From Novosphingobium sp. Gsoil 351 (GTDB lineage: Bacteria > Pseudomonadota > Alphaproteobacteria > Sphingomonadales > Sphingomonadaceae), in assembly GCF_009707465.1 (NCBI RefSeq), contig NZ_CP046120.1:496001-560000 (forward strand): a DNA stretch of 64,000 nt. Reading direction: 5' to 3'. The notes beneath the pieces were generated by a model. That model was not told where the DNA came from and did not search any database. It saw only the letters and a program-made list of their open reading frames with translations. The first letter of the stretch is position 1. Every line of letters begins with the position of its first letter. Both the position numbers and the translations under genes were made by a program. Below are positions 2,004 through 4,259 of this stretch, piece after piece.

Positions 2004-2035
2004 TTGACTCCGTACCGTGGTACGGAAGCTATGGC
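2004..2035 (+). promoter_or_regulatory. mer-type promoter/operator for MerR regulator
   Basis: A -35 hexamer TTGACT (2004-2009) and a -10 hexamer TATGGC (2030-2035) are separated by a long spacer of 20 nt. The spacer holds the perfect dyad CCGTAC-CGTG-GTACGG (2010-2025). Half-sites, 4-nt centre and -35 match the layout I recall for the Tn21/Tn501 mer operator (CCGTAC-N4-GTACGG after TTGACT). An over-long spacer bridged by a dyad is the signature of MerR-activated promoters. It points toward the glutaredoxin-MauE gene starting at 2076. Confidence 0.85.
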
Positions 2036-2075
2036 AGATCTCGTTGCAGGCGAAACCAGCCCCCCAGGATCGACG

Positions 2076-2813
2076 ATGAGCAAGTCCGCCACACTGTACC
2101 GCATGGTCATGCCGGGCCACACTTGTCCTTACGGCCTCAAGGCGCTGCACCTGCTGCGGCGGCGCGGCTATGCGGTCGAAGACCGCTGGCTAAAGACGCG
2201 CGCGGAAACCGACGGGTTCAAGGCGGAGCATGCGGTCAAGACGACCCCGCAGACCTTCATCGATGGCGAGCGGGTCGGCGGATACGACGATCTGCGCCGG
2301 TTCCTCGGGCTGAAGGTCGCCGATCCCGACGCGGTCAGCTACGTTCCCGTGGTGGCGGTGTTCGCCGCCGCGCTGGCGCTGGCTCTCGCCGCGGACTGGG
2401 CAGCCTATCAAGCGCTCCAGCCCGTCCGCATCGCCGAATGGTTCGTCTCGTTCGCGATGGTCCTGCTGGCGATGCTCAAGCTGCAGGACATCGAGAGGTT
2501 CTCGACGATGTTCCTCAACTATGACCTGCTGGCGAAACGCTGGGTGCCTTATGGGTACGTCTACCCGTTCGCGGAGTTCACTGCGGGCGCGCTGATGGCG
2601 GCGCGCGCGCTGCCCTGGCTTTCGATCCCGCTCGCCCTGGTCATCGGAACGATCGGCGCGGGATCGGTGTTCAAGGCGGTCTATGTCGACAAACGCGAAC
2701 TCAAGTGCGCCTGCGTGGGCGGATCGAGCCGGGTGCCTCTCGGTTTCGTGAGCCTGAGCGAGAACCTGGCGATGGTGGCGATGGCGCTGTGGATGCTGTG
2801 GCGGCCGATGTGA
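2076..2813 (+). CDS. Glutaredoxin-MauE/DoxX fusion membrane protein
   Basis: This 245-residue protein starts at ATG 2076, downstream of the MerR-type promoter; an upstream in-frame TTG lies inside the promoter and is not credible. Residues 1-75 form a glutaredoxin-like domain with a CPYG active site (TCPYGLKAL) and a TTPQTFIDGERVGGYDDL segment containing the conserved cis-proline. The remainder is a MauE/DoxX-type membrane domain with about four or five helices (PVVAVFAAALALALA, WFVSFAMVLLAML, FAEFTAGALMAA, IPLALVIGTIGAG, SENLAMVAMALWMLW) and a CAC motif before the last helix. MauE-like proteins take part in disulfide handling; in metal-response clusters such fusions are thought to manage thiols or metals at the inner membrane, which is inference here. 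A Met/His-rich protein gene follows 17 nt after the stop. Confidence 0.8.
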   Translation: MSKSATLYRMVMPGHTCPYGLKALHLLRRRGYAVEDRWLKTRAETDGFKAEHAVKTTPQTFIDGERVGGYDDLRRFLGLKVADPDAVSYVPVVAVFAAALALALAADWAAYQALQPVRIAEWFVSFAMVLLAMLKLQDIERFSTMFLNYDLLAKRWVPYGYVYPFAEFTAGALMAARALPWLSIPLALVIGTIGAGSVFKAVYVDKRELKCACVGGSSRVPLGFVSLSENLAMVAMALWMLWRPM

Positions 2814-2830
2814 TTTTTCCGGAGATGACA

Positions 2831-4259
2831 ATGAAAGCCCTGTTCAGCGGCGCCGCCGCGCTCGCCCTCGCCGCGCCCCCTGCCCGCGCTGGCGCAGGAC
2901 CATAGCGGCCACCAGATGCCGATGCCCGCTCCGGCTCCGGCTCCGGCTCCGGCTCCGGCTCCGGCTCCGGCCCCAGCTCCGGCGCCTGCGCCTGCGCCGA
3001 CCATGGAAGGGATGGACCATTCGCAGATGGACCACGCTGCGATGGGCCACGACATGGCGGCGATGGACCATGCGGCTATGGATCATGCGGCGATGGATCA
3101 CGCCACCATGGACCATGCCACCATGGCGCATGGCGGCGAAGGCTCGGGCACCTCGCGCCTGCCCGCCAACGAGACGATGAACCACGGCGCGATGATCGGG
3201 CTCGGCGGCGAGACCACGCTGATGGTCCACGGCTATGCCTGGGGGGTCTACACCGACCAGACCGGGCCGCGCGGCGACGAAAAGGTGTATGTCCAGTCGA
3301 TGGCGATGGCGACGGTCACCACACCGTTCGAGGGCGGCAAGTTCACTGCCCAGACGATGCTCAGCCTCGAACCGGCAATGCGTCACGATGGCTATCCCAA
3401 CCTCTTCGCCACCGGCGAGGTCGCCTATGGCCAGCCGCTGGTCGATCGCCAGCATCCGCACGACCTGTTCATGGAGCTGTCGGCGCGGGTCGACTTGGAC
3501 CTCGCTCCAGACGTCACCGCGTTCGTCTATGGCGGCCCGGTGGGCGAACCCGCACTCGGCCCCAGCGCGTTCATGCACCGCGCCAGCGCGCGGTATAATC
3601 CCGAAGCGCCGATCACTCATCACTGGTTCGATTCGACGCACATCACTTATGGCGTTGTGACCGGCGGTATCGCGGCGAAGTCGTTCCAGCTCGAAGCCAG
3701 CGCCTTCCGCGGCCGCGAGCCCGACGAGCACCGCTGGAACATCGAGACCCCCAAACTCGATTCGTGGAGCGTGCGCGCCAGTTTCGCGCCCTCGCCCGCG
3801 TACCTCTTGCAGGCCAGCTACGGCCACCTCAAGGAGCCCGAGGAGCAACACCCCGGCGAAGACGAGAACCGCTTCACCGCCAGCGCGCATTTCAACGACG
3901 GCAAAGAGCTATCGGCGATGGCGGCGTTCAGTTCGAAGAACCGCCAGCCCGGCGAGACGCTCACCGCCTGGCTGGGCGAGGTCAACTGGGACATCGACCG
4001 CCACCACACGCTGTTCGGGCGGGTCGAGAACGTCGCGAACGACGAGCTCTTCCCCGATCACCTGGACCCGCTGCACGACCGCAAGTTCCGGGTAAGCAAG
4101 TTCCAGGCAGGCTACGCCTATCGCCTTCCGCTGGGGCCGGCGAACCTGGCCCTGGGTGGCACCATCGCCGCTTTCGCCAAGCCGAACGCCCTCGACGCCG
4201 CCTATGGCAGCAATCCGATGGGCTACACGCTGTTCGCGAAGCTCAGCTTCGGCGATTGA
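2831..4259 (+). CDS. Met/His-rich outer-membrane metal-associated protein (signal peptide out of frame)
   Basis: A signal peptide begins at ATG 2831 (GGAG site 6 nt upstream), but its frame runs into TAG at 2903-2905. The mature protein continues in the next frame. Removing one C from the C5 run at 2876-2880 rejoins them as a peptide ending LPALAQ, directly before DHSGHQMPMP. The uninterrupted part alone is 447 residues from ATG 2916. It has an Ala-Pro tract, then MDH repeats (MDHSQMDH, MDHAAMDHAAMDHATMDH), then about 370 residues of alternating-strand beta-barrel sequence (HGYAWGVYT, RQHPHDLFMELS, ending FAKLSFGD). Met- and His-rich tails typically bind Cu(I)/Cu(II) or silver. Position behind the MerR module supports a metal role, and outer-membrane location is inferred from the barrel-like pattern. 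The frameshift may be a sequencing error or slipped-strand variation. Confidence 0.7.
2926..3000 (+). repeat. Hexamer tandem repeat encoding Ala-Pro tract
   Basis: The stretch is built from GCTCCG units (seven or more near-perfect copies, then degenerate GCCCCA, GCGCCT and GCGCCG). It encodes about 13 Ala-Pro dipeptides between the signal peptide and the Met/His region. In-frame hexamer repeats can change length by two residues per slip without breaking the frame. A second, 12-nt repeat coding for MDHA follows at roughly 3012-3126. Confidence 0.85.

Follow-up and report, generated by a model that had tools for sequence, protein, structure and literature searches.

Operator, regulator and target genes at the locus

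The window, the whole 64-kb stretch of DNA that was analysed, carries a MerR-family regulator gene and a gene for a glutaredoxin-MauE (Grx-MauE) fusion in a divergent layout, with an operator-promoter of the mer type between them and a third gene downstream. The features, with the basis of each assignment in brackets, are as follows:

1591..1998, minus strand: MerR-family regulator, 135 aa (Pfam domains, sequence alignment, AF2 model)
2004..2034, plus strand: mer-type operator-promoter (pattern scan, consensus as in PMC1526738 and PMC11049809)
2076..2813, plus strand: glutaredoxin-MauE fusion, 245 aa (Pfam domains)
2831..2905, plus strand: beginning of the third gene with its signal peptide, in a frame that differs from the rest (sequence, in-frame relatives)
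2916..4259, plus strand: main open frame of a Met/His-rich putative outer-membrane protein (ORF, relatives)

The -35 element TTGACT (2004-2009) and the -10 element CTATGG (2029-2034) are separated by a 19-bp spacer (2010-2028), and the dyad is placed within this spacer, as is typical for the MerR superfamily with its 19- or 20-bp spacers. The dyad core CCGTAC-CGTG-GTACGG covers positions 2010-2025; counting the flanking T and A, it becomes a 7-4-7 dyad, TCCGTAC-N4-GTACGGA, at 2009-2026. Positions 2004-2034 carry an operator of the mercury-MerR type, matching the proteobacterial MerR signal TCCGTAC-(4)-GTACGGA within a 19-bp spacer as excerpted from Permina et al. (PMC1526738), and they also match the Tn501/Tn21 promoter in the excerpt of PMC11049809. 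The preliminary description had recognised the Tn21/Tn501 mer layout in CCGTAC-N4-GTACGG and TTGACT, and the match to both published sequences bears this out. When up to two mismatches were allowed, the exact site at 2004-2034 was the sole operator site in the 64-kb window, with a mean of 1.96 sites in shuffled windows at two mismatches. The pattern GACTCCGTAC-N4-GTACGG, searched with up to three mismatches in the 3.8-Mb genome to which the window belongs, returned nine rows, of which two are the window site, one per strand (0 and 2 mismatches), and seven have three mismatches; a reversed-pattern control returned 23. In some relatives (L046, L053, L055), the operator has CATG as its N4 and contains an in-frame ATG for MerR (MVRSQ...), and the regulator might start inside the operator in these cases.

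The product of the gene in front of which the operator lies had been described as a glutaredoxin-MauE fusion, and both domains score above their cut-offs (PF00462, 26.6 bits; PF07291, 49.2 bits). The glutaredoxin part contains a CPYG site (Cys17) and the membrane-located MauE part a C211-A-C213 motif. Among 158 distinct relatives, Cys17 and Gly20 are present in 157 of the 157 proteins that cover the place and C-A-C in 156 of 156, and the tyrosine of CPYG is found in 116. Of 149 genomes, 72 contain matches with E <= 1e-80, at 89 places in total, and relatives with 70% identity are located on three contigs of a viral collection (L080, L081, L082). On pSymA of S. meliloti 1021, at approximately 157.6-158.3 kb, a Grx-MauE gene (66% identity) is accompanied by a divergent MerR with arginine at the key position discussed below (R-type) and by a near-consensus operator. 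We take this gene to be SmGrx3/SMa0280, based on its domain make-up, on SMa tags denoting pSymA genes and on a position estimated from the tag numbering. According to excerpts of PMC6315971, Sinorhizobium meliloti SmGrx3 combines CPYG with MauE, as does the window protein, has low activity, and is of a function not known, with a mutant lacking a defect; the table given there lists heat shock as the one inducer of SMa0280. Unlike for the window-type module, no link to copper is stated in these excerpts.

The third gene gave no match to a Pfam or NCBIfam family, whereas a family match would be expected for the copper-resistance outer-membrane protein CopB. Based on the signal peptides of relatives and on source names such as 'TonB-dependent receptor', its product is predicted to be located in the outer membrane. 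The ATG at 2831, which starts the signal peptide, and the main open reading frame at 2916-4259 are in different frames, with an apparent frameshift within 2831-2916, in the signal peptide beside a C5 run. As relatives have in-frame copies, the window copy might be inactive or misassembled. The earlier assignment as a Met/His-rich outer-membrane protein stands for the composition and, through the relatives, for the putative location, but the copy at this locus appears to be frameshifted.

The metal site of the regulator and its conservation

The regulator scores above the cut-offs of the MerR families PF13411 (65.4 bits) and PF09278 (66.1 bits), and reaches 25 bits for PF00376, below the cut-off of 28.2. 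It also remains below the cut-offs of the mercury MerR family TIGR02051 (99.4 versus 150.85 bits), the CueR family TIGR02044 (90.6 versus 147.4 bits), CadR-PbrR (57.1 versus 151.45 bits) and ZntR (84.2 versus 167.95 bits). Its only cysteines are C116 and C124, which form the metal loop C116-x7-C124. The position of Cys82 in MerR and Ser77 in CueR is occupied by Arg81: phmmer pairs Arg81 with the MerR cysteine, and its distance to the first loop cysteine is 35 residues, as it is for Cys82-Cys117 in MerR and Ser77-Cys112 in CueR. In the AF2 model (mean pLDDT 86), the dimerisation helix 81-117 starts at Arg81. The metal loop can be aligned with that of CueR without a gap and with that of a Tn501-type MerR with one gap. 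The preliminary description had placed an arginine at the first Hg-binding cysteine and had found only C116-x7-C124 left, with the spacing of the CueR loop, and these alignments agree with it on both points. The window MerR thus lacks the third Hg ligand, Cys82', as well as Ser77 of CueR. In the parts of a review that bear on this site, the partner-chain residue (Ser77', Cys77', Cys79') is named as the one that mainly sets the selectivity for +1 versus +2 ions (PMC9909328). A regular CueR with serine at the key position and a C-x7-C loop is also encoded in the same genome (L002, G000:C1:345362-345739), and judged by these residues two copper-type MerR proteins may coexist there.

Arginine at this position is a property of the family. 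Among the nearest 120 of 5411 proteins found, 119 have arginine together with C-x7-C and the remaining one is without the first loop cysteine. For a wider count of distinct C-terminal halves, all loci gathered were used, which gave 138 Grx-MauE-linked regulators, three of them without a readable loop. The key residue in the 135 readable proteins is arginine in 128, histidine in five, glycine in one and glutamine in one, and cysteine in none. By comparison, cysteine is found in 11 of the 12 mer-linked MerR proteins, the remaining one (L235) being without a readable loop. The same pattern was seen at loci with a mer-type operator from surveys of the class and the phylum (8 of 385 and 20 of 398 genomes, with the window's own genome in both): nine mer-linked regulators have cysteine and the tenth (L068) is unreadable, while all eight Grx-linked regulators have arginine. 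As the C-x7-C spacing also occurs in two of the 12 mer-linked regulators, both of which have the cysteine, the Grx-linked and the mer-linked group are told apart by the residue, not by the length of the loop, and loop spacing can be dismissed as a sole diagnostic. An invariant arginine can likewise be dismissed, since five relatives, including the first-branching L134, L140 and L155, have histidine and two have glycine or glutamine.

It had been suggested beforehand that homologues with a cysteine at position 81 would mark the window protein as a degenerate mercury regulator. Such homologues were looked for and none was seen among the 135 readable Grx-MauE-linked relatives, which, together with R81 in 119 of the nearest 120 proteins, rules out this explanation. 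Judged from its sequences, the MerR/Grx-MauE module is a conserved and widespread family and not a decayed mercury switch. The widespread clade, the conserved Arg/His, the loop of CueR length without the CueR serine and the apparent frameshift in the third gene all go beyond the preliminary description. Of the nearest 120 listed relatives, 21 carry a jgi name containing 'mercuric resistance operon'. Because such MerR proteins can be labelled mercury regulators, genomes may be read as mercury-responsive though they are more likely copper-responsive.

Genes behind the operator and in its neighbourhood

A search of sphingomonads for the same dyad and gene order had been proposed. We inspected every exact operator in 298 genomes from the family to which the window belongs, probably the Sphingomonadaceae to judge by named relatives. 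There are 58 sites in 52 of the 298 genomes, and 48 of the 58 are located in front of Grx-MauE. When sites with identical surroundings were merged, 56 remained, of which 46 precede Grx-MauE and 10 do not. The other sites lie in front of the Met-rich outer-membrane gene alone (L249), Cu P-type ATPases (L250 and L054), copC (L268, above its cut-off) and, once among the 58, a true mer operon with a Cys-type MerR (L261); five sites (L244, L269, L272, L056 and one site in G012) are without an assigned target. For the ATPase fragments of L250 and L054, the copper-translocating model gives the highest score, which stays below the full-length cut-off because both loci end within the ATPase gene. Each of the six genomes G079, G138, G978, G1019, G1020 and G742, which have a site that is not before Grx-MauE, contains one R-type MerR. 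The unassigned site in G012 is a second exact operator just behind a Grx-MauE gene (C11:20388-20409; L264, L287).

A scan of named relatives, with one genome per species and 16 aligned regulators, gave a non-random set consisting of the best 80 of at least 590 relatives. Sphingomonads, rhizobia and Caulobacteraceae account for most of these 80, and two are from Lysobacteraceae. An operator with at least 15 of the 18 fixed bases is present at 79 of these best 80 MerR loci; the remaining locus, L129, has a transposase-like ORF directly upstream. Grx-MauE adjoins MerR in 73 of the best 80. At L115, which is without Grx-MauE, the operator matches 16 of 18 bases and is followed by the copper-type multicopper oxidase copA (TIGR01480, 820 versus 479 bits). 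At two further loci without Grx-MauE, the operator is followed by the Met-rich outer-membrane gene and then copC and copD (L119) or by a short Grx and then the outer-membrane gene (L124). At L129, L139, L146 and L150, we identified no operator-driven copper gene. In L046, the Met-rich outer-membrane gene follows the operator after a MauE remnant; the leftover of the MauE end between the two (1521-2514) looks as if Grx-MauE had been deleted. The multicopper oxidase, copC and Cu P-type ATPases behind the same operator place copper genes in the regulon of this lineage, as read from gene order.

To survey the surroundings, copper and mer proteins of C. metallidurans pMOL30 and of four sphingomonad/Agrobacterium stretches with the module were used as probes. 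Copper genes are found within about 10 kb at 24 of the 80 MerR loci (the best 80 of at least 590) compared with one of 40 arbitrary stretches (Fisher p 2.4e-4), which come from genomes of the window's own family and are thus taxonomically narrower than the 80. They are also found at 14 of 20 Grx-MauE loci without MerR (Fisher p 2.9e-8 against the same 1/40); these were chosen from 89 places, seven of them being known beforehand to be without MerR, and all 20 proved to be so. Of the 19 copper probes, 11 derive from neighbourhoods of the module itself, which carries a risk of circularity, and the count was therefore repeated with the eight pMOL30 probes alone. This gave 22/80, 14/20 and 1/40 (p 5e-4 and 2.9e-8), and 21/80, 14/20 and 0/40 when the RND probe and DUF2933 were left out. 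At 56 of the best 80 MerR loci there was no copper probe match within 10 kb; 11 of the 80 loci are shorter than 15 kb. Among seven annotated plasmid neighbourhoods, four have copper or heavy-metal genes and three are without a copper gene. Mer probes matched two of the best 80 MerR loci, one with only a 30% MerA match and the other, L131, with MerT/MerP nearby. MerT had no match in the window's own genome, while four of four mercury-genome positive controls gave matches. In place of the mer transport and reductase genes that a mercury MerR controls, the window regulator has Grx-MauE.

Origin, proposed mechanism and alternative readings

Taken together, we propose that the window encodes a member of a MerR lineage that responds to Cu(I)/Ag(I), has retained a mer operator and drives a membrane thiol-redox protein and copper genes, and we assign this reading a probability of about 0.76, with the metal being what we infer. 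The preliminary description had already suggested a mer-like switch rewired to Cu+ or Ag+, which gains support from the absence of cysteine in all 135 readable relatives and from the copper genes behind the same operator. The window MerR shares its operator, the 19-bp spacer, the divergent layout and a neighbouring tree branch with the Tn501/Tn21-type mercury MerR, and its best sequence match in the PDB is 5crl, a mercury-type MerR. It differs from Tn501 MerR in that Cys82 is replaced by arginine (histidine in a few relatives), that the loop is one residue shorter and that no mer genes adjoin the regulator. The Cu(I), Ag(I) and Au(I) sensors CueR, HmrR and GolS have in common with the window type the C-x7-C loop, the lack of a cysteine at the partner position and, in relatives, copper genes behind the operator, but they differ in Ser77, where the window MerR has arginine, and in the mer-type operator of the latter and, as far as the drawn tree goes, its separate branch.

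For the mechanism, we draw on what is established for MerR, from which repression by the apo-dimer, undertwisting, two-sulfur binding of Cu(I)/Ag(I) and a charge role of Arg81 can be inferred. Bound to the operator within the spacer, which at 19 bp is over-long, the MerR dimer would keep the Grx-MauE promoter silent. C116 and C124 would coordinate Cu(I) from the cytosol, or Ag(I)/Au(I), in linear geometry, and the metal-bound dimer would change, undertwist the DNA and switch on transcription. With arginine at the place of the third Hg(II) ligand, Cys82', divalent ions would lose a ligand, and Arg81 may, through its basic side chain, compensate for the charge of the S-Cu-S unit. The output would be a cytosolic CPYG glutaredoxin joined to a membrane MauE part in which a CxC is conserved. 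This fusion probably serves as a thiol conduit that is coupled to glutathione and protects the envelope under copper stress; from its domains, we hypothesise that it passes reducing equivalents to the other side of the membrane. In relatives, the output would also include the Met/His-rich putative outer-membrane protein. If this reading is true, metal specificity can shift without a change in the DNA switch, Arg/His being used instead of the serine of CueR, and the Grx-MauE family would have a testable role.

Several observations speak against the Cu(I) reading. The key residue is arginine, and occasionally glycine or glutamine, and not the serine of the proven Cu(I) sensors. The regular CueR in the same genome means that a second copper sensor needs explaining. 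Copper probes are missing at 56 of the 80 loci and a copper gene at three of the seven plasmid neighbourhoods, and MerT/MerP lie near L131. In addition, heat shock is the one inducer reported for the S. meliloti member in the table excerpted from PMC6315971.

The heat-shock entry for SMa0280 in that table would also fit a sensor of thiol-redox state or electrophiles, which is, in our view, improbable but the best of the alternatives. In such a sensor, C116 and C124 would form a disulfide or an adduct, glutaredoxin would be induced to mend thiols, and copper genes would lie nearby because copper provokes the same stress; the main target is indeed a glutaredoxin, and the regulator is left with two cysteines and no third cysteine ligand. 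However, the same operator precedes copC, a multicopper oxidase and Cu P-type ATPases, which are metal-handling and not redox genes, and the loop retains the layout of a Cu(I) sensor. As a pair of cysteines is able to coordinate Hg(II) in linear geometry, a two-cysteine Hg(II) regulator, kept as a minor or organomercury response, could be envisaged, and the operator is the same as that of mer and the lineage adjoins the mercury MerR proteins in the tree. We nevertheless consider such a regulator very unlikely, as 78 of the best 80 loci are without a mer probe match, a single mer operon is found among the 58 family operator sites, and no relative in 135 has a cysteine at position 81. Hardly any weight can be given to a sensor of divalent metals (Zn, Cd, Pb or Ni) whose Arg/His variants use other ligands: histidine, a possible ligand, occupies the key place in five of 135 relatives, but arginine, a poor one, does so in 128, copper genes are among those behind the operator, and the CadR-PbrR and ZntR scores are below their cut-offs.

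With regard to the origin of the lineage, trees of 73 and 71 rows were calculated, each with 43 R-type regulators. These form one group with support of 100/100, and of 100/98 when position 81 and the columns of the C-terminal loop were left out. In the drawn tree of the 73/71-row analysis, the R-type group is placed beside the mercury MerR proteins and not beside CueR, the deeper nodes being weakly supported (88/78, 87/47), and a topology test gave an AU p of 0.132 for a joint clade of R-type and CueR proteins, which is above the rejection level. The R-type lineage might thus branch beside the mercury regulators and have retained their operator. Whether the Cu(I)/Ag(I) reading extends to a second such sensor that evolved out of the mercury-MerR lineage and converged on CueR is a coin toss in our estimate; such a sensor would have kept the mer operator and exchanged cysteine for Arg/His, and its main output would be Grx-MauE, a thiol conduit across the membrane that is driven by glutathione. 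If this is true, orphan proteins of the SmGrx3 type gain a function in copper stress.

No earlier report of the MerR/Grx-MauE module was seen among the freely accessible papers listed for it. The excerpts of a Caulobacter copper transcriptome study contain no mention of MerR (PMC8224329), those of PMC5045206 name no operator of this kind, and CupR of C. metallidurans is described as a CueR orthologue in those of PMC10304878. A second MerR clade (99/95), made up of L043, L044, L048, L050 and L063, has the same mer-type operator, and none of the standard mer genes could be identified next to MerR at these five loci. In L048, an HMA-like domain follows next to the MerR in the same frame.
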